Assembly (NCBI GenBank): GCA_033816765.1
Contig: CM066287.1
Coordinates: 1,736,001 to 1,800,000 of the forward strand
Direction of reading: 5' to 3'
Source of the DNA: Nothopassalora personata
Taxonomy: Eukaryota; Ascomycota; Dothideomycetes; Mycosphaerellales; Mycosphaerellaceae
Length of the DNA stretch: 64,000 nucleotides
The notes beneath the pieces were generated by a model, which saw only the letters and a program-made list of their open reading frames with translations, was not told where the DNA came from and made no database searches. Below, piece after piece: positions 23,852 to 64,000 of the stretch; the first letter of the stretch is position 1, and every line of letters starts with the position of its first letter. The position numbers and the translations under genes were made by a program.

Positions 23852-24416
23852 AGACCTACACACCGATTATGCCCAAAGCACCGTCACGGGATCCAGCGTC
23901 TCTGCAGTCCACTCGATATCATGGAACGACAACACTGTGGGTCGGGCGACGTCAATAGCAAAAGCTAAAGGATGCATTCGGAGACCGTAGCGTGCGTAAG
24001 CGAGCGTGTTGTCCAAGTTGTCTCACTGGGTCTATGGCAGCCAGATTCACCTGTTTCGTTGAAAAAGGGGGAAATGTAAGCTCGTGGCTGGCCCCGATGG
24101 AACCTAAGGACAAGAGGCAGCAATTGCTGCACCACATCCGGTGCCGCGCCTGTATGGTCTTTCGCGCGCGCACCGCGCACAAATAGAGACGACATTCGAC
24201 GCATGTGTGAAACCTTGTGACGTGTTATTCAATGCCGGCCCAATCCGGTCGCCGCTCGGGCCGGCCCATTTGGTATAGAATATTAATATGGTTTCCAAGT
24301 TGAAGCGAGGAGGTCCGTGCCCGCACATGCGGCTATACAGACTATCGACGTTTTTTCTCTTCCTTTGTAGATCACCGAAAACAACAACACATCTTGCACC
24401 AAACATCAAGTTCCCA
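23852..24416. other. intergenic left of the duplicated segment
   Basis: About 0.57 kb with no supported gene. The duplicated block begins at its right edge. Confidence 0.45.
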
Positions 24417-24455
24417 TTCTTGTGCAGAGCTAGCGCAGGCTCCGGTCAATTTCCA

Positions 24456-24950
24456 CTACGGGTCTATTGTTGGTGAGCTTTGGCACTGGGGCAAGGAGAA
24501 ATCTTCGCAGTGCTGATGTGGAGGTGGAGCAATCTTTGGAACCGGGCATGGTCCCGCGCCATTTCCAGGACAGTCGGGATTCGTTGGTTTCTCATGGTCT
24601 TTGTAGCCGAAGTTTTTGTTCGTCTGGGAACCGTCTTTGTTCGTCGGGAGAACGTCTTTGTTCAACGGGGCAACGTTTTTGCTCGTCAGGAGAACGTCTT
24701 CGTGCTTTGGGGGATTGTCTTTGTGCGTCAAGAGAACGTCTTTGTTCGGCCGGATAGCTTCTTTGTTCGTCGGGACAATGTCTTTGTTCGGCGGGGCAGC
24801 GTCTTTATTCGTCTGGCCAGCGACGTCGTCTGTCTGGCTCCGAGCAGTCAATCCCTGCCTCGTAGGAGGTTGACTAGCATCGAGGATCGATCCGATAGGA
24901 AGAGCACTTGTAGTTGCTGCAAGAATGATAATAGGGAAAAGGAACTTCAT
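24456..24950 (-). CDS. small secreted heptad-repeat protein, paralogue A
   Basis: Unrecognised family; a secreted, effector-like protein is inferred from architecture only. 164 residues, single coding exon. Signal peptide MKFLFPIIILAATTSA, then a short conserved part (LPIGSILDAS), then about nine tandem copies of a seven-residue unit of type x-N-K-D-x-x-P at about 45-110 (a 21-bp minisatellite in DNA), then a C-terminal domain with four cysteines spaced C-x7-C-x12-C-x7-C. The paralogue at 27323-27883 shares signal peptide, repeat period and Cys spacing. A 50-bp intron lies in the 5' UTR. Confidence 0.7.
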   Translation of the reverse strand: MKFLFPIIILAATTSALPIGSILDASQPPTRQGLTARSQTDDVAGQTNKDAAPPNKDIVPTNKEAIRPNKDVLLTHKDNPPKHEDVLLTSKNVAPLNKDVLPTNKDGSQTNKNFGYKDHEKPTNPDCPGNGAGPCPVPKIAPPPHQHCEDFSLPQCQSSPTIDP

Positions 24951-24964
24951 TGCGCCGGTAGCCT

Positions 24965-25014
24965 CTATAGATGTCAGATCGCACTAAGAAACTGGTGTAA
25001 TCGTCAATGCTTAC
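24965..25014 (-). other. predicted 5' UTR intron of paralogue A
   Basis: Donor GTAAGC, branch-like TCTGAC, acceptor CTATAG, followed by a 14-nt stretch leading to the ATG. The same arrangement occurs in paralogue B, so it is conserved across the duplication. Confidence 0.6.
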
Positions 25015-26023
25015 AAAGGTTGAGACCGCTAAAGGAGAGTATAGGGATCCTGTTAATCACTAGATTGTTGCTCTGTAGTTCTGCCTCTTCGTAAGAGTAT
25101 GTGAAACGGCGTTCATTATATATTGACTGTAGTATCCGAGACCGAAGTTGCAATTTCATAAACATTATTGTTGCTAGCATAGTGCTAGTTAGCTTCTACA
25201 GAAAGTAATTATTAAGCTATACTCCAGAGAGAAGTAGACTTGCCCCTTCACCTAGTTGTATACCTTAGACTTTTAAGACAAGTAGTAAAGAAGATTAAAA
25301 GGCAACCTACGTACTACAGGCCTGAGCAATAATTATACAACCCCTGTCCTTTTACTATCCCCTATTACAGTCTGTCTTCACGTCCCATCGTTACCTACTA
25401 GATTTTACTCCTTCGATTCGCTAATCTGGCTCCATTATTAATCGCCAACCACGATTCTTTAAGGTTTAAGGTTAAGCAATTCTGTAACTCTAAGGGCTCC
25501 AACACAGTTGGTGGTTGTTGACAGGCTTCGTTGGTTTCTCCAGTTGGTGGGACCAGGATTGTGGTAGGTAACGAGCGGACGTGAAAAGAGACTGTAGGAA
25601 GGATGTTATACTGCTTAGCGTAGCTCACTACCTAGTCTGGCCTCCATTGTTGTTGGTTACTGCTTCGTAGCGCTGTCGTATAGACTGCCAGATGTGCGAG
25701 ATATTACTGCTTATTAGCTAGGCCTATTGACAACACCTTCCGAGAAGACACTGTAGCAAGCTAATTAGGGATAGCGTAAATGCAGGGGGTTTTACAATTA
25801 TTGCTTCCAAGGTTGGGGCTGTAGTCTATCTAGGATCTAGGATCTATAGAGAAGATTGCTAAGCAAAACCTACTGTAGCAACAGCATTAGGGGAAGGACC
25901 TACTAAAGTTGGTATTCTGCAAGGCAGAAGACGATAGAGCTTCGAAAAGTCTATAGGCAGCTCACGATTTCGTCCGAATAAGCAATTAATTGCTATCAAA
26001 TGGGGAACTCCACTTATTGTACA

Positions 26024-26127
26024 GTGCATGTGTGTGTTAATTGTGTGCGGCCTACGAAGGAAGAAAGACTGCTATATAACCAGCTTGGCACGGGCACGGT
26101 CCAATGACCCATTCACTTCAAGTTACC
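26024..26127. repeat. direct repeat copy 1 (promoter-like)
   Basis: About 100 bp repeated at 26821-26910: 'GTGCATGTGTGT', 'CTACGAAGGAAGAAAGA', 'GCTATATAAC', 'CACGGGCACGG', 'ATGACCCATTCACTTCAAG' in the same order. It contains a TATA-like CTATATAAC. It might be an LTR remnant or a terminal repeat of a small non-autonomous element. Confidence 0.75.
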
Positions 26128-26229
26128 CTCTCGTGCTTGTCACCTGCTATCGCACGTAAGGTACTGTTCATTCATTCAATTTGGCTGCCGAACCCCCTGC
26201 TTTCTGCAGTTGGTGTTGTTTGTAGTTCA

Positions 26230-26405
26230 TTTATCAACCATGCTTCTTAGGCGTTGTTGTGTGTTTTTGATGCACTTGCCTCAACCCTGCTTCTCAGGTG
26301 TTGCTCTTAACCATGCTTTTCAGGCATTGTTCTCAACGCTGCTTCTTAGGCGTTCTTGTGTGTTTCAAGTGCATTTGCCTTAACCCTGTTTTCAGGCGTT
26401 GTAGG
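26230..26405. repeat. degenerate minisatellite, unit about TGCTTCTTAGGCGTTG
   Basis: Five or more imperfect copies of '(AC)CCTGCTTCTTAGGCGTTG' with variants TTCTCAGGTGTTG and TTTTCAGGCATTG; one more copy is near 26726. Non-coding. Confidence 0.7.
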
Positions 26406-26412
26406 TCTTTAG

Positions 26413-26437
26413 GTGTGTGTGTGTGTGTGTGTGTGTG
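26413..26437. repeat. (GT)n microsatellite
   Basis: About 12 GT units, continuing as G/T-rich sequence (GGGTGTGTGGGTGG and similar) to about 26500. Confidence 0.9.
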
Positions 26438-26820
26438 GGTGTGTGGGTGGATGTGGGTATGGGTGTAGGTGTTGGTTGTAGATATAGGTGTGGGTGTATT
26501 CAGAACTGCTATTCGCCGTTCTCGTTCTGGCCGTATAGGTTGTTGAAGGCCTCTGTTATTGCGAAGTCAGCTTGTTAAGGTGTAGCAGCTAGACTGGCTT
26601 GCATATGATCGTGCTCTTGCTGCTGCTTGGTAATGGCCATGTTCGCTGGCGACTCGAGTGGCGTCGCGTATTTTCGGATGGGTGAAGTTTGTATGTGCGT
26701 CGCCCTCCCCCCATCCCCCACCCCTGCTTCTTAGGTGTTGGGTGATTGTAGCGGCAGGAAGCCTATGAGGAACGGAGGTCGTGCGGAAGTGCGTGAGGGC
26801 TCACAACCACTTGATGTATG

Positions 26821-26910
26821 GTGCATGTGTGTCTACGAAGGAAGAAAGATCGCTATATAACTAGCTTGTGCACGGGCACGGACCTATGACCCATTCACTT
26901 CAAGTATACC
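26821..26910. repeat. direct repeat copy 2 (promoter-like)
   Basis: Second copy of the repeat at 26024-26127, about 800 bp away, with small indels. It ends 'CACTTCAAGTATACC', reminiscent of 'CATTTTAAGTATACACC' in the LTRs at the right end of the window. Confidence 0.75.
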
Positions 26911-27322
26911 TGCCCCCTAGCCCTCCGCTGCACTTAGGTCCTCCCAGGCGATCCTCCCTCCCTTCGGGGCCCCCTCCTACCGTAGGCGCTTCCCAAGTTT
27001 GCTTCGGCTATAGGAAACATAGATGCTATTAGCCCTCCTCGGGCGGGCAAGCAAAGTTTGGATGATTGGCTGATTTGATCGTTGTACTCTGTCGCATGAA
27101 AGCCGCTATCACTAAGCGCCTGATCAATCACTCATAAAGTGACCTGTAACGCCTTTCCTTCATCATACCGCGCGTATTGAACAAAACGAGCGCCATGCCT
27201 ACCTCGTCCAGTATCAGCTAAGAATTGGATCTGCCCCTAGGCGAAATCGTGAGCTACCTATAGACTTTACGGGAGATATTGGGATGGTCTGTATTCTTGT
27301 GCAGAGTTAGCGGAGGCTCCGG

Positions 27323-27883
27323 TCAAGTTCCACCACTAGAAGTTCCACCGCCAGAATCTTTCTCTTTGCAGTGGGGCTTGGTGTATTCTCCGCAGTTCTG
27401 ATGTGCACCATTTCCATTCTTTGGAGGCATGCATGATCTATATCCTGCCTGGCCTGTAGGACAATTGACGGTGGGCCCAACGCGGTTTGAGTTCCTCCCA
27501 GTGCGACTCTCGTTAACGGCATAGTCCATCATGCCAACGTTATTGATCGTCTGGCTACCGTCATTGTTTTTCTGGCCAGCGTCATTGTTCGTCTTTCTAG
27601 CGTCCTTGTTGTTCGTCTTGCCAGCGTCCTTGATTGTCTGGCTACCGTCATCGTTTTTCTGGCCAGCATCATTGTTCGTCTTGCTCTTGCTAGCGTCATT
27701 GTTCGTCTCGCCAGCGTCATTGTCTTTCAGGGCAGCGCCATTGCCTAGATAACTAGCGTCATTGTCTGTCTGGGTCCGAGGAGTAAATCCCTTAGGAGGT
27801 CCACTAGCATCAAGGACCGATCCGACCGGAAGAGCAGTTATTGAAGTTGCTGCAATGAAGATAACGGCAAGTAGAAGCCTCAT
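27323..27883 (-). CDS. small secreted heptad-repeat protein, paralogue B
   Basis: 186 residues from the ATG at 27883; the open frame runs 15 codons further up through a non-ATG start. Signal peptide MRLLLAVIFIAATSITA, conserved 'LPVGSVLDASGPP', then seven-residue repeats of type T-N-N-D-A-G-x with K-N-D-D-G-S-Q variants at about 55-110, then a tail with cysteines C-x9-C-x12-C-x7-C and a Gly/Ser-rich end. Compared with paralogue A the repeats have become Asn/Asp-rich instead of Lys/Pro-rich while the period stays at seven. Function unknown. Confidence 0.7.
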   Translation of the reverse strand: MRLLLAVIFIAATSITALPVGSVLDASGPPKGFTPRTQTDNDASYLGNGAALKDNDAGETNNDASKSKTNNDAGQKNDDGSQTIKDAGKTNNKDARKTNNDAGQKNNDGSQTINNVGMMDYAVNESRTGRNSNRVGPTVNCPTGQAGYRSCMPPKNGNGAHQNCGEYTKPHCKEKDSGGGTSSGGT

Positions 27884-27897
27884 TGCGCCGGCAGCCT

Positions 27898-27943
27898 CTA
27901 CAGGTGTTAGACTAAGAAACAGATGCAATCGGTTGATGCTTAC
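27898..27943 (-). other. predicted 5' UTR intron of paralogue B
   Basis: Donor GTAAGC, branch TCTAAC, acceptor CTGTAG, at the same relative position as in paralogue A. Confidence 0.6.
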
Positions 27944-28380
27944 AAAGGCTCGATTGTTGCTAAAATGCCTGAAGGACAGTATAGGACTTCTTGTAATCGT
28001 GATCTCTAGATTGCTGCTCTGGATTTCTAGCTCTTCGTTAGAGTAAGTGAGAGGACATTATATATTGACTGTAGCATCCGAGACCGGAATTGCATTTTTG
28101 TGAACATCATTTGATTTTGCTTGCATAGTCCCCGTAAGGAGTAATTGTTAAGCTATGCTCCTGAGAGAAGCTGACATGTCCCCTTTTCTACCTATATACT
28201 CAAATCTTTGAAAGACACGTAGTGAAGAGGAACAGGAAGCAATCTATACAACTTCATCTAGGATAGCTTCAGGGAGATTGCTAGGCAGAACCTAGGAATA
28301 GGAATAGGGGAAGCTTCTATTAGCGTTAGTATACTACAGTACTGTACAAGGCAGAAGAGCATAGAGCTTACGTTTGCGGG

Positions 28381-59303: not shown

Positions 59304-59870
59304 ATGTCTTCTTCCTTCTAATCCAAATCTACCGCTCGCCGTAAGAAGAAAGCCTAGTAGATCTTTCGTAACGGCGATACCGCGATGCGTCCGTGTGATT
59401 CTTATTAAAAGGAGGGCCGTGTGTGCAAGGTGCATATCTTATCTAGTTGCTGTTCCGAGTGCTAGTAGCGGAATCTAAAGAGTTGCAATACGAGGGTAAC
59501 CGAGGGCGAGTAGAAGCGCTTATCGCTTTAGCGGAAGAAATTGTTGTAGGAACTAGATACCGCGAAGAGGATTCTTAGTAAAAGGCAGGATGCCTTAATA
59601 GAAGCGTATATAAAGGAAATACGCCTTCGTAAGCAATTGGATGCGGTTGATTAGAAGGTTACGGAGGGTCGTTCGTTAGAAGATCGGTTGTTACTAGACG
59701 AGGATCTAGGGGCGCAGGAGTACGCTATAGTAGACGCGGATCCTAGTGCTCCTAATCTGTCCTTATCTCCTTAGACCTAGAGTGCTGTCGAAGGTCTTCC
59801 GGACGACTTCTAGCTTTCTCCTTCTAGCGAGACGGTGCCGTCGGTAGCTTAGCCGTCTCCTTCGTAAGGG
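59304..59870 (+). pseudogene. relic of the antisense Zn2Cys6-like ORF of the old element
   Basis: Aligned by eye with the intact ORF at 62674-62057: the same upstream 'CTCGCAACGATGTCTTC', a six-cysteine cluster with spacing C-x2-C-x6-C-x8-C-x2-C-x7-C (second Cys now Tyr, TGT to TAT) and a charged helical segment containing 'IRLRKQLDAVD'. About ten in-frame stops (TAG/TAA) fit Gln and Trp codons hit by RIP. It lies downstream of pol in the opposite orientation. Confidence 0.7.
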
Positions 59871-60012: not shown

Positions 60013-60590
60013 GTGTGGTTACTTCTAAGCAAGCGCCGTTTTAATACTCCCGAATCTTCTACTAACAGTTTCGTAGGTTTTCTTTTAGTTCCTAGGTATT
60101 TTCTAATTTGTCGTATCCCTTCTATTTAATAAGGTATCGCTGACCCTTTTTATCTAGGATTTTTTTGACTTTAAATTCGTTTTCTACTTCCGGCTCGAAA
60201 TAGAAGCTCTCTTAGTAAGGTGTTCTAGCGTCTGCGGGTTCTAGCTTAGAGATATAGAAGACTAGGTGGATTTTTGCGTTAGGTGGTAGTCGTAGTCGAT
60301 AGTTAACTAGTCCTACGACTTTGTCGATTAAAAATGGTCCGACCTTAAAGTAATCTAGTTTCTTAGTCTATCTTCTTGTTCTTAAGTTTTTTGTAAGGAG
60401 ATAGACCTTATCCCCCTTTTTTAGTAGAGGTGCTATTTTTCTCGTGTTCTACCGTTATTAAGACAGTTTTCGTTGTACATCTTCGATCGCCTTACGTGTT
60501 TCTTTATGCACTTCCTTAAGAGTATCCGTCGTCACGATTGCTCTCTCGGCCTGTAGATAGGATCTAGGTGTTCCGAATAGGTTAGGATCT
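60013..60590 (-). pseudogene. integrase C-terminus and chromodomain relic
   Basis: Minus-strand frame with 'FKVGPFLIDKVVGLVNYRL' (integrase GPF/Y-like region), 'IHLVFYISKLEPA', then a chromodomain at about 60175-60067 ('ILDKKGQRYLIK' then TAG in place of Trp, 'KGYDKLENT' then TAG in place of Trp). These are the two aromatic-cage Trp positions of the motif. A chromodomain at this position marks a chromovirus. Confidence 0.8.
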
Positions 60591-60919
60591 TGTTACGGTT
60601 TGATTCGTGGAGAACCCACAACCACTCGTTAGGCAAACGAGAGCAAGGAAACCTATGGGACGAGATCGCTCTCTGAGCTCTAGGGTGATCTCTGAGGGAG
60701 CAGAGAGAGCAGGACAGATCAACTGATCGGACTGATCAAGTCGCGCCAAGACATGGCACTATATAGACGACGCTCTTTTGCAAGTAGATAGGAGCTTCGT
60801 GCTCAACTCATTTTAAGTATACACCATATACTGTTTGGAACCACTACCTTCATAACTGATTGAGACATCCCTGCAAAGATCCAAGCCCGAGTTGTGATAA
60901 CGTACAGCGGTTCCTAACA
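60591..60919 (+). repeat. 5' LTR
   Basis: Terminal inverted TGTTA/TAACA; same length and, on reading, same sequence as 62752-63080. Contains a TATA box at 60760-60765 and GTGCTCAA at 60799-60806. Confidence 0.95.
60760..60765 (+). promoter_or_regulatory. LTR TATA box
   Basis: CACTATATAGACG within the 5' LTR. Transcription would be expected to start 30-40 nt further on, close to 60799. Confidence 0.65.
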
Positions 60920-60922
60920 ACT

Positions 60923-60930
60923 TTGAGCAC
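60923..60930 (+). promoter_or_regulatory. candidate self-priming primer-binding site
   Basis: TTGAGCAC, starting 4 nt after the 5' LTR, is the exact complement of GTGCTCAA at 60799-60806 near the expected RNA 5' end. No TGG of an ordinary tRNA primer site follows the LTR. Tf1-type fungal elements prime from their own RNA 5' end in this way. Confidence 0.45.
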
Positions 60931-60951
60931 CACCACCAGGGCCCTTTGCAT

Positions 60952-61944
60952 ATGTCTGGGAGAGACGCTACCCGGAGTCCGTCACGACAACAGCCACAGT
61001 CAACTGGCATCACGGAACGAATGAGCGAAATGTCGATTACAGGAAGCAGCAAGAACAACAACACTCCTATGGGTATGCTGAACCCATTGGACCACCACCG
61101 TGCACCTAAGGTGTCTACGCCGGAGACGTTCGACGGGACCAAGGACAAACTGGAGGCTTTTCAACTGCAGGTTCAGTTGTACCTTCACTTCAACGCACAC
61201 CAGTTTCAAGGCGAGGCCTCTAAGGTCTTGTACGCCGCATCCTTCCTACGAGGAAAAGCAGCTAGAGGATTCCGACCATACCTCAAGGACTGGCTACACA
61301 ACCAGGGCGAGGGAGAAACACCGAAGACGGAAACTCGAAAAATTTTCCACGACTACGACGAGTTTGAGACGAAACTCGATGATCTATACGGGATACCAAA
61401 TGAGGAGGTATACGCCGACCGACATATCCGACAACTTCGACAGACTACTTCTGTAGCGCTGTACGCCTCAGAATTCCAAGGATATGCCGCCGACCTGGAA
61501 TGGAACGACGCAGCTTTGCGATCGCAGTTCTACCTCGGGCTGAAAGACAACGTCAAAGCCGAACTATCCCGAAACGCCAGCGTCGTTACGCTAGGGGCGA
61601 TGATCAAGGCAGCAAAGGAGATCGACGAAAGGCTCCAGGAGTTGAGGTACGACCGACACGTACAGCCTGGATACCAGAGACCCGCCGCGGGCGGAAGAGG
61701 GGGCTTCAAGGCCAGAAGTCAGGACCCTAATGGTTACGGAGACCCAATGGAATTGGACGTAACGGAACGTAGGACAGGAAGGGGGCTGAAGAGCAAAGGT
61801 TCCACCTGCTACGTATGTGGCGAGCAAGGCCATTATGCAAGGAACTGCAAGAAAAAGAACATAGTTAGCCGCGAGTTCAACGCAATGATTCGCGAAGAGA
61901 ATGCATACCAGGAATGCGAGAGCTTTCTCTCGAAATCTGCCTAG
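60952..61944 (+). CDS. gag: retrotransposon Gag with CCHC zinc knuckle
   Basis: 330-residue structural protein of the virus-like particle. Capsid-like core with 'ETFDGTKDKLEAFQLQVQLY' and 'FLRGKAARGFRPYLKDW', then 'YASEFQGYAADLEWND' and 'SQFYLGLKDNVKAEL', typical of Retrotrans_gag. Basic Gly/Arg-rich linker, then one C-x2-C-x4-H-x4-C knuckle 'CYVCGEQGHYARNC' near the C-terminus. Start at the ATG at 60952 (MSGRDATRS), 33 nt after the LTR. The frame ends in TAG at 61942 with no pol frame following, so a Gag-Pol fusion is not possible here. Confidence 0.92.
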   Translation: MSGRDATRSPSRQQPQSTGITERMSEMSITGSSKNNNTPMGMLNPLDHHRAPKVSTPETFDGTKDKLEAFQLQVQLYLHFNAHQFQGEASKVLYAASFLRGKAARGFRPYLKDWLHNQGEGETPKTETRKIFHDYDEFETKLDDLYGIPNEEVYADRHIRQLRQTTSVALYASEFQGYAADLEWNDAALRSQFYLGLKDNVKAELSRNASVVTLGAMIKAAKEIDERLQELRYDRHVQPGYQRPAAGGRGGFKARSQDPNGYGDPMELDVTERRTGRGLKSKGSTCYVCGEQGHYARNCKKKNIVSREFNAMIREENAYQECESFLSKSA

Positions 61945-62056
61945 CAGAAACAACCTGAGGACAGCAAGGCATCAAACAGCGGCTTCTTGATTTGATGACC
62001 TAAGGAAAAGAAGTCAACACAACGACACGGAACAAATGACTACTGGGTAACACGAC

Positions 62057-62674
62057 TTACGAAGATTGAGATGCCAAGACGGGAGGAAAGAGAAAATCCA
62101 AGGGATCGTCCAGCGGGACGTCCGACAGAGAACTCCAGTCTTGAGGAGGCATCTCGAGAATGCCATGGAAAGGGAAAGGAGGTTCAGGGACCTCTACACC
62201 GGACGGAACAGAGAAGGGGAGATCGACAGGAGGGTCGTCCAGCTCGAGTTCGTCGAGGGCCTTCCCGGTCGCATCATCGGTACGACGCTCAGCAAGACGA
62301 AGCTGTTTCCGTACACGAACTTTCTTCATGCGCTTCTCAGTAAGACGCTGGAGAAGCTCAATCTCCTCCTCTTCTAAGGATTCCAAGTCGCGACGAAGCT
62401 GTTCCCGGACGGAGCGAAGTTTTTCCCATTGGGGGAAGGCCAGAGAAACGTCGCAAGTCTTGCGGTTGTGTCTAACGCACTCGGAGCACTTCGAGGACCT
62501 CGGACCAACGATGCAGGCAGGACGACTGCCATCAGCCAAAGGTTTCAGGGAACGACAATAGGAGCAGGGAGCCATTTCGTAACCGTTCTCTTCAATATCT
62601 TCAACAAGGCGCTTGCGACGAAGGGTTGATTTTGCTTGAGAAGGACCAATGGTGATAGATGAAAGAGAAGTCAT
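62057..62674 (-). CDS. antisense Zn2Cys6-like coiled-coil protein of the retrotransposon
   Basis: 205 residues, encoded against the direction of gag. Residues 1-30 are basic. A six-cysteine cluster at 37-74 has spacing C-x2-C-x13-C-x8-C-x2-C-x7-C ('APCSYCRS', 'SKCSECVRHNRKTCDV'), like a fungal Zn(II)2Cys6 cluster with a longer first loop. A strongly charged helix, probably a coiled coil, lies at about 83-130 ('LRRDLESLEEEEIELLQRL'). The tail is acidic and Pro-rich. The ATG at 62674 is 77 nt inside the 3' LTR edge, so a promoter reading outward-in from the 3' LTR is likely. The relic homologue in the old element shows this is a family feature. Function unknown; DNA or RNA binding is inferred. 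Confidence 0.75.
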   Translation of the reverse strand: MTSLSSITIGPSQAKSTLRRKRLVEDIEENGYEMAPCSYCRSLKPLADGSRPACIVGPRSSKCSECVRHNRKTCDVSLAFPQWEKLRSVREQLRRDLESLEEEEIELLQRLTEKRMKKVRVRKQLRLAERRTDDATGKALDELELDDPPVDLPFSVPSGVEVPEPPFPFHGILEMPPQDWSSLSDVPLDDPLDFLFPPVLASQSS

Positions 62675-62738
62675 CGTTGCATGACAGGATTGACGAAGAA
62701 AACGCCGGACCCTATAAGCTTCGGGACGAAGCTAGGCT

Positions 62739-62751
62739 AGAAGGGGGATGG
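62739..62751 (+). promoter_or_regulatory. polypurine tract
   Basis: AGAAGGGGGATGG directly before the 3' LTR, the expected plus-strand priming site. A near copy is found at the equivalent place in the old element. Confidence 0.8.
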
Positions 62752-63080
62752 TGTTACGGTTTGATTCGTGGAGAACCCACAACCACTCGTTAGGCAAACG
62801 AGAGCAAGGAAACCTATGGGACGAGATCGCTCTCTGAGCTCTAGGGTGATCTCTGAGGGAGCAGAGAGAGCAGGACAGATCAACTGATCGGACTGATCAA
62901 GTCGCGCCAAGACATGGCACTATATAGACGACGCTCTTTTGCAAGTAGATAGGAGCTTCGTGCTCAACTCATTTTAAGTATACACCATATACTGTTTGGA
63001 ACCACTACCTTCATAACTGATTGAGACATCCCTGCAAAGATCCAAGCCCGAGTTGTGATAACGTACAGCGGTTCCTAACA
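62752..63080 (+). repeat. 3' LTR
   Basis: 329 bp, apparently identical to the 5' LTR; followed by the GATCT target duplication. Confidence 0.95.
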
Positions 63081-64000
63081 GATCTTTACTAAAGTTCGCA
63101 TAAAATGGCGTCGTTGAAGTTGTCTCCGATTTGTGGTTGTTTAGTGCAATCTGCGCTATTAGCAGCAATGAAACCTAGTTGTCTTATGTATAGTTAATGT
63201 AGTGTCGTAGGTATTGTTCTAGCGTTTAATTCATCCTTTCGGTTTGTCCGTCTGTCTCCGGATAATATGCTATTAACAGCTTATGTTTAATTCCGATCGT
63301 TCCTATAAGCGTCTTCTAGTAGTTTAATGTGAATAGCTTGTCTCTATCCGTTATAAACGCTTAAGGGAATCCGTAGTATCGGATAAGTCTATCTAGTACG
63401 AGGTATCCGAGCTACTCTACATTGTACGTTTCTAATGTAGGAATAAAGTGTGCGTATTTCGTAAGTCTATCAACTATGACTAGTATTATGTCGTATAGTT
63501 GTTTCGTAACTTAATCTCTTAACGGTGGGAGTTTCGTAATAAAGTCTATTATAACTTCGTCCTATGGTTTCGTCGGTAGTGTCCTAAACTGTAGGTGACC
63601 GTATTTTGCATGTCTCGCAGCCTTGTTTCGTTAGCAGTGTACGCATTGTTTAATGTAGCGTAACACCTTAAGTCTCATCTATAGAAATAAGAAACTGCGC
63701 TATATTAGGTCTATAGTTTTTAAAGTTCTAGGGTGTCTATAAGTTGGTCCGTCGTAATGTTGTTAAATGCATTCTTCTTCTCGATCCTTCGGTACTTAGT
63801 ATTTCCCTTGCGATATAGGGAACTGTTCGTCCTTGTTGCCTAGTATCCGTACGATGTTGTTGAATTCTCTCGTGTTTGTACTAAGACTTCCGTCGGGGTT
63901 TGTCTTTAATATCTTGTGTTGCACTAGTTCTTTTCCTTCTATATAGTCGCTTCTTCGGCTTAGCGCGTCGGCGCGGCTATTCTCTCTTCCTAGAGTATAT
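63081..64000 (-). pseudogene. integrase core relic of the old Ty3 element
   Basis: Minus-strand fragments in order: a DDE-core segment 'ITDRDKLFT' followed by 'LIGTIGIKHKLLIAYYPE', 'TDGQTERMN' (His before the Pro replaced by Tyr), and 'LLIAQIALNNHKSETTSTTP' at about 63168-63105. They are interrupted by stops of RIP type. The young element was inserted just after this last segment. Confidence 0.8.

Follow-up and report, generated by a model that had tools for sequence, protein, structure and literature searches.

A gag-only LTR retrotransposon family in Nothopassalora personata may recombine a shared mobility module with diverged antisense gene and promoter cassettes

Background

How a long terminal repeat (LTR) retrotransposon that encodes Gag, lacks pol and keeps an intact antisense gene might move and evolve is the question raised by an element at positions 60591–63080 of a 64,000-nt stretch of the genome of the ascomycete Nothopassalora personata (Mycosphaerellaceae; GenBank assembly GCA_033816765.1, contig CM066287.1, positions 1,736,001 to 1,800,000, forward strand). 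The whole stretch is referred to below as the window, and the element as the window copy.

The TR-GAG elements of plants likewise have LTRs and gag and no pol. Antisense genes located before the 3′ LTR are known from the Boty element of Botrytis cinerea and from several plant families (PMC7264820, PMC8365987); in Boty the antisense gene, brtn, lies between pol and the 3′ LTR (Zhao et al. 2011, cited in PMC8365987 and PMC7264820). The function of such genes is described as unknown (PMC7264820, PMC11963269), and for those of the plant Retand elements DNA binding and regulation have been proposed (PMC11963269).

Results

The structure given in an initial sequence-only reading of the window was confirmed: the window copy (locus L040, Table 1) has identical 329-bp LTRs, starting with TGTTACGG and ending with CCTAACA, a GATCT target duplication, an intact gag, an intact antisense gene of 205 codons and no pol between its LTRs (judged from the sequence and the list of open reading frames, ORFs). 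Its Gag matched the Pfam families Retrotrans_gag (8.3e-11) and zinc knuckle (6.9e-6). The copy thus shows everything that defines a gag-only, non-autonomous, TR-GAG-like element (an LTR pair with target duplication, open gag, no pol) and lacks the reverse transcriptase (RT) and chromodomain-bearing integrase of an autonomous Ty3/gypsy chromovirus; most copies also carry a conserved antisense ORF beside the 3′ LTR, as elements of the Boty brtn/Retand type do.

The source genome (54.5 Mb, 40 contigs) was searched for related copies. Of 1050 candidates, 121 gag copies were scored at a protein identity of at least 98%, and 119 of these had no internal stop. The sequence in which the LTR end meets the primer site was found at 185 places (up to three mismatches; no hits with a reversed-pattern control). 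Detailed measurements covered 40 locus rows representing 39 distinct places (L016 is the same as L042), with L010, L011, L014, L015 and L022 omitted as repeats of the same copies. Target duplications matched in 37 of the 40 rows (36 of 39 distinct loci), the exceptions being L045 and L046, which are neighbours in a tandem pair, and L059, which is truncated; 28 of 40 rows combined identical LTRs with a matching duplication. Since dispersed copies carry target duplications of their own, both chance and assembly duplication can be excluded as the source of the LTR pair. The latter, and single-copy occurrence without relatives, had been named in the sequence-only reading as findings that would speak against it; neither applies here, and its view of the element as recent and free of damage by repeat-induced point mutation (RIP) agrees with a composite RIP index of −0.15 (left and right 3-kb flanks, +0.79 and +0.95), identical LTRs and many near-identical copies.

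By coordinates, 119 of the 121 gag copies were linked, at version-specific distances, to one of about 12 versions of the antisense gene, and two to none. The number of gag copies per version was 30 for T3, 23 for T8, 13 each for T1 (the version of the window copy) and T12, 11 for T5, seven for T10, six for T2, five for T9, three for T4 (plus three with a deletion), two each for T6 and T11 and one for T7. Versions T1–T4 and T8–T11 were read base by base; for T5, T6, T7 and T12 the information comes from search places and identities alone. Compared with the window copy, copies of types T2, T3 and T4 had 99% identity in gag, 100% in the leader and 97–99% over the stretch that runs from the TATA box to the end of U5. 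Identity fell in sharp steps to 49–59% in the antisense region and 46–72% in the upstream U3, values to be read against the roughly half at which unrelated sequence also aligns. All three comparisons placed the breaks at the TATA box and the end of gag. Of the 40 measured rows, 39 had a gag with 0–15 differences from that of the window copy in 993 bases; the gag of L019 is frameshifted.

The family is built of two modules. The first, the mobility module, comprises the TATA box, R-U5, primer site and gag and is nearly identical between subfamilies; the second, the regulatory module, unites the antisense gene with the palindrome, the polypurine tract and the upstream U3 and exists in about 12 diverged versions. 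Since identity changes sharply at the TATA box, the core promoter, the start of the RNA and the primer site belong with gag, and the upstream promoter and the antisense gene travel together. About 12 diverged regulatory modules under a near-identical mobility module imply recombination between elements, and a near-identical gag beside antisense genes close to synonymous saturation (synonymous differences per site, pS, of 0.63–0.74 in the closest version pairs) is hard to explain without it. All U3s read were different. Repetition of 7-mers in U3 exceeded that of all 1000 shuffles in T2, T3, T10 and L077 (a pol-bearing element described below), was matched by 19–24 of 1000 shuffles in T4, T8 and T11, and was unremarkable in T1 and T9 (799 and 787 of 1000). 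The U3 of T10 (3′ LTR of L080) is mostly made of 8-base repeats, one 7-mer occurring 18 times; T2 has a similar array of another unit.

Exchange of modules could proceed by template switching, as proposed below, or in DNA, through recombination or gene conversion between resident copies or between cDNA and a resident copy, in which case the rest of the model would hold. In L017 and L021 the two LTRs are unlike variants (29 and 28 ungapped differences, respectively) despite matching target duplications, so recombination with resident copies may also occur, and tandem arrays with shared LTRs are present. Almost all other measured copies, however, have identical or near-identical LTRs together with duplications, as expected for reverse-transcribed recombinants, the breaks at gag end and TATA box recur in all three comparisons, and recombinants of the Arabidopsis element Onsen arise in transposition bursts (PMC5668417). 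We regard an origin of the exchange in DNA as unlikely, while taking it seriously. The array at G000:C12:1356314-1367583 consists of six direct-repeat gag copies spaced at exactly 2056 bp, each with a T8 antisense gene; it is tandem, with LTRs shared between neighbours, and shorter arrays lie on C5, C7, C8 and C11.

Judged by its substitution pattern, the antisense gene is a conserved coding gene under purifying selection, with ratios of nonsynonymous to synonymous differences per site (pN/pS) of 0.35–0.42 (0.345, 0.377, 0.395 and 0.422 in the four closest version pairs). Six cysteines are invariant across 12 antisense sequences. The spacing pattern of Zn2Cys6 clusters, CX2CX6CX5-12CX2CX6-8C, fits six of nine versions, T1, T2 and L077 having a longer first loop; a looser expression, written after seeing the sequences, fits all nine. 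The Pfam Zn_clus cut-off was just attained by T11 (21.0 bits) and was not reached by the window protein, T2, T3, T4, T8, T9, T10 or L077; the 205-aa window protein reached the cut-off of no Pfam family. The two antisense clades were homologous to each other (probability 97.8%, E = 7.9e-13). When a model of T8 was submitted to Foldseek, the first eight matches were all Zn2Cys6 proteins, as were 16 of the 17 VIA rows if 6gys, which we take to be a Zn2Cys6 kinetochore complex, is counted. Fold searches with the full model of the window protein found nothing significant and no Zn2Cys6 protein, a result compatible with a Zn2Cys6 fold, and sequence searches of PDB with T3, A1 and A2 returned coiled-coil and assorted matches and no Zn2Cys6 protein. 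Taken from their sequences, with support from structural models, the antisense proteins read comprise a Zn2Cys6-like cluster, a long helix of predicted coiled-coil type and an acidic tail, an architecture that would make them Gal4-type regulators.

Because of this architecture and the linkage of the gene to U3, the antisense protein may regulate the U3 that accompanies it. Two observations tell against such a role: distances between U3s did not correlate with distances between antisense proteins, and among the 119 linked copies the gene was deleted in three and stopped in four. Two T4 copies, L051 and L056, share a deletion of its C-terminal part and have identical LTRs in different target duplications, and premature stops occur in the separately inserted copies L049, L055 and L062. 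The spread of these copies requires that the protein act in trans or be dispensable, and it weakens the earlier proposal that both proteins, or both loci in cis, matter for movement. A further T4 copy with a shortened antisense gene was found at G000:C3:1885544-1886985.

The same two observations, and the presence of 6gys among the Foldseek matches, would fit a protein that acts away from U3, on host chromatin or silencing, on the particle or at the integration site. We judge this improbable, if worth keeping in view, given the Gal4-type architecture, the joint travel of antisense gene and U3, and the DNA-binding regulatory role likewise proposed for the Retand antisense genes (PMC11963269).

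The RTs considered were the best 150 of 1916 candidates, which leaves an autonomous relative with window-type Gag possible. None of the 121 gag copies had one of these 150 RTs within 8 kb downstream on the same strand, and none of 100 listed leader places (of the 185) had an RT when tested against 108 of them. Thirteen of the 100 were without a listed gag start within 60 bp; an antisense version lay downstream in nine of these and none was listed in four. Among the listed RTs and leaders, no autonomous partner was found that shares the Gag or the primer site.

Of the 150 listed RT places, 66 had an antisense homologue on the opposite strand, 2.1–2.4 kb downstream; for the other 84 none was among the matches listed. 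In L077, the one pol-bearing element read, the order was gag, pol, antisense gene, polypurine tract and 3′ LTR; the domains recognised in its Pol are RT, RNase H, H2C2 and chromo (9.1e-16), with the integrase core just below the cut-off. The antisense gene hence does not stand in place of pol, as had been supposed, for pol-bearing chromovirus relatives carry a homologous gene between pol and the 3′ LTR.

Pol families D, G, E and F were each represented by the Gag of a single copy, from partly incomplete stretches, and these were 37–38% identical to the window Gag. In pol group A, tblastn with Gag found nothing at eight loci, in stretches that were centred on RT and may not reach gag. By comparison, 25 of 27 database homologues showed 48–81% identity; 23 of the 27 were 252–356 aa long, and Hortaea werneckii was the named source of one. 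That search admitted 0.55–1.75 times the query length, so Gag-pol fusions could not appear in it. These identities lead us to infer a gag lineage that has probably long been separate and is not a recent deletion product of the pol-bearing elements compared. A plain internal deletion in one autonomous chromovirus, with the antisense ORF as a passenger, would account for the order of parts, which is that of pol-bearing elements down to the antisense gene, and for the LTR start and pre-LTR palindrome shared with L077. It fits poorly with the contrast between the two sets of Gag identities, with purifying selection on the antisense gene, and with the fact that, over the matched stretch, 112 of the 119 linked copies have neither stops nor the deletion in that gene, and we think it quite improbable.

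The putative RNA 5′ end, starting 33 bases after the TATA box, is complementary to the primer site over 8 nt. An equal match was seen in 13 of 5000 shuffled leaders within the same stretch, which was chosen afterwards, and in 238 of 5000 anywhere in the LTR. In L077 a two-sided change preserves the pairing of RNA 5′ end and primer site; the L077 LTR also holds an unrelated 9-nt match elsewhere. Self-priming by the window family is supported by this pairing. A scan for bacterial promoters and terminators, which is not made for fungi, gave nothing useful.

A stem was present 15–18 bases before the LTR in all nine versions. It reads AGCTTCG/CGAAGCT in T1, T3, T4 and L077 and is shorter in T2; the other antisense clade has GATCG/CGATC or GATCAAT/ATTGATC. 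Five of these stems were clearly better than those of shuffled sequences (1–7 of 500) and four were not (83–149 of 500). The constancy of the place, while the sequence has changed, would suit either a folded RNA at the polypurine tract or a binding site of a protein dimer.

The window copy sits within the pol of an older, RIP-mutated minus-strand chromovirus. Around 24 loci (gag loci L055–L059 and L068 lie outside this set), RIP indices were positive in 47 of 48 flank stretches, the single exception being a tandem neighbour; the values are slightly off for L048, L051, L061 and L067, where LTR ends were misplaced. By contrast, 13 of the 16 4-kb blocks of the window had indices of −0.5 to −0.93. 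The block at 24001–28000 had a lower GC content (0.486) and a higher index (−0.09) than the neighbouring gene-rich blocks. At 59310–59696 of the window (C1:1795310-1795696) lies a RIP-mutated relic of an antisense gene, 38% identical to the T3 protein and with internal stops, which may be part of the chromovirus that the window copy interrupted.

A RIP-mutated, T1-like antisense/LTR stretch of about 2.28 kb was found at 15 loci (L023–L037) at the ends of C9 and small contigs C20–C40, with at least 99.6% identity across loci and some pairs 14,804 bp apart. It is a large duplicated repeat unit, copied after RIP. Rfam scans of L023, L024 and L035 gave no match, and no match to pol was found in L023–L037.

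Table 1 Features of the window copy and of the element it interrupts (positions in the window)
Feature	Position	Strand	Remarks
Target site duplication, left	60586–60590		GATCT; sequence
5′ LTR	60591–60919	+	329 bp; 0 differences from 62752–63080
Upstream U3, version-specific (5′ copy)	60591–60755	+	46–72% identity to three other versions
Putative core promoter (TATA box 60759–60766), R and U5, shared	60756–60919	+	97–99% identity to T2, T3, T4
Putative RNA 5′ end, self-priming	60799–60806	+	Complementary to primer site
Putative primer binding site	60923–60930	+	Complement of 60799–60806
gag, 330 aa from ATG	60952–61944	+	Capsid domain and CCHC knuckle (Pfam)
Antisense gene, 205 aa	62057–62674	−	Six-cysteine cluster, residues 37–74; long helix, 80–146; acidic tail
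Pre-LTR palindrome (perfect, 7 bp), between antisense start and 3′ LTR	62717–62733		Single match in window, expected 0
Putative polypurine tract abutting 3′ LTR	62743–62751	+	Sequence; comparable run in other versions
3′ LTR	62752–63080	+	329 bp; U3 directly upstream of antisense gene
Target site duplication, right	63081–63085		GATCT; sequence
Interrupted target, RIP-mutated chromovirus pol	63070–63999	−	L077 Pol residues 664–975, tblastn 83% identity; alignment extends a few bases into the LTR of the window copy
Remainder of interrupted pol	60044–60592	−	L077 Pol residues 968–1150, tblastn 80% identity

Discussion

On balance, we favour a model in which the family is a gag-only satellite of chromoviruses, self-primed, that recombines a mobility module with cassettes of regulator and promoter. 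Such a lineage would live off the chromodomain-bearing Ty3/gypsy elements of the same genome, making its own Gag and having its RNA packaged with chromovirus Gag-Pol. Reverse transcription would be primed by the element's own folded RNA 5′ end, as in Tf1, and the partner's chromodomain integrase would direct integration into RIP-mutated heterochromatin; such a helper Pol is invoked because pol is absent and the targets are RIP-mutated. Template switching between co-packaged RNAs could then join the R-U5-gag of one element to the antisense-U3 cassette of another. A promoter close to the palindrome or in the 3′ U3 would drive the antisense gene, and its protein might act in trans, Gal4-like and most likely as an activator, on the U3 inherited with it.

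A further view of the exchange is offered by L024, an old RIP-mutated gag-only copy of T1 type and the sole member of the L023–L037 group with a whole gag, the 14 others sharing the antisense part and not gag. Transversions affected 104 of 990 gag sites and 13 of 618 antisense sites, which points in part to exchange. Other figures from the same copy pull the opposite way: transitions in the anti-RIP direction numbered 47 in 990 sites of gag and 48 in 618 of the antisense gene, all non-RIP differences amounted to 15.3% in gag and 9.9% in the antisense gene, and the 3′ U3 had 22 transversions in 164 sites. That no recombination took place, the antisense/U3 part simply evolving far faster than gag within one lineage, is highly improbable in spite of the strong U3 variation known in other retrotransposons (Tnt1, PMC1838419), given the sharp identity steps, the excess of transversions in L024 gag over its antisense gene (which reverse transitions do not show) and the near-saturated pS of the closest antisense versions beside a gag that hardly varies.

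The likeness to TR-GAG elements drawn in the sequence-only reading is fair as regards structure (LTRs, gag, no pol); it leaves the antisense gene and the module exchange unexplained, and the window family differs in being fungal, in its conserved antisense gene and in having many subfamilies with one gag. Tf1 is self-priming through the same complementarity of RNA 5′ end and primer site, but is autonomous, whereas the window family is non-autonomous. HBZ of human T-cell leukaemia virus 1 (HTLV-1), a bZIP protein, is a nuclear regulator whose gene runs antisense at the 3′ end of its LTR element, and it illustrates how the antisense protein here might work; as an unrelated retroviral protein it serves as an analogy only. 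HBZ is named in PMC11963269.

Among elements with antisense genes, Boty is likewise a fungal LTR element with an extra antisense gene; a gag-only form and cassette exchange, both features of the window family, go unmentioned for Boty in the available parts of the sources. Retand and other plant elements have the antisense gene at the 3′ end, a proposed regulatory role and some non-autonomous members (PMC11963269, PMC7264820), but Retand is a plant element with a different protein domain (TRP28), as opposed to the fungal Zn2Cys6-like protein here, and 10 of 63 clusters are without typical domains, none being described as gag-only in the available parts of these sources (PMC11963269, PMC7264820). 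In the Tnt1 superfamily a conserved body is combined with very diverse U3, which has been called modular evolution (PMC1838419); there U3 varies in pol-bearing elements, whereas in the window family an antisense, regulator-like gene accompanies it. Family members of Onsen recombine during transposition (PMC5668417), within one family, while the window family joins very distant cassettes to one gag.

We found no description of gag-only fungal retrotransposons with swapped antisense-U3 cassettes in the open-access literature, most subscription papers being outside this scope. As far as these searches reach, three things are new within that literature: a gag-only fungal lineage with an antisense gene, the Zn2Cys6-like nature of the encoded protein, and the joint exchange of antisense gene and U3 as a single cassette under a near-uniform gag.

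Conclusions

A bolder picture, which we put forward tentatively and with less than even confidence, is that of reassortment as in a two-segment virus, one coat and packaging module being combined with a dozen or more cassettes, each with its own Zn2Cys6 regulator and U3. If so, the fittest gag would sweep through all promoter types, each promoter type remaining under its own switch. This one genome holds about a dozen natural antisense versions, each beside its own U3 and in nearly the same gag background, which allows a direct test of whether an antisense protein acts on its own promoter and not on others. Promoter-specific, self-encoded regulators, if real, would account for the antisense genes as well as for the variability of U3, and reassortment in retroelements could then be modelled on gag-only satellites.

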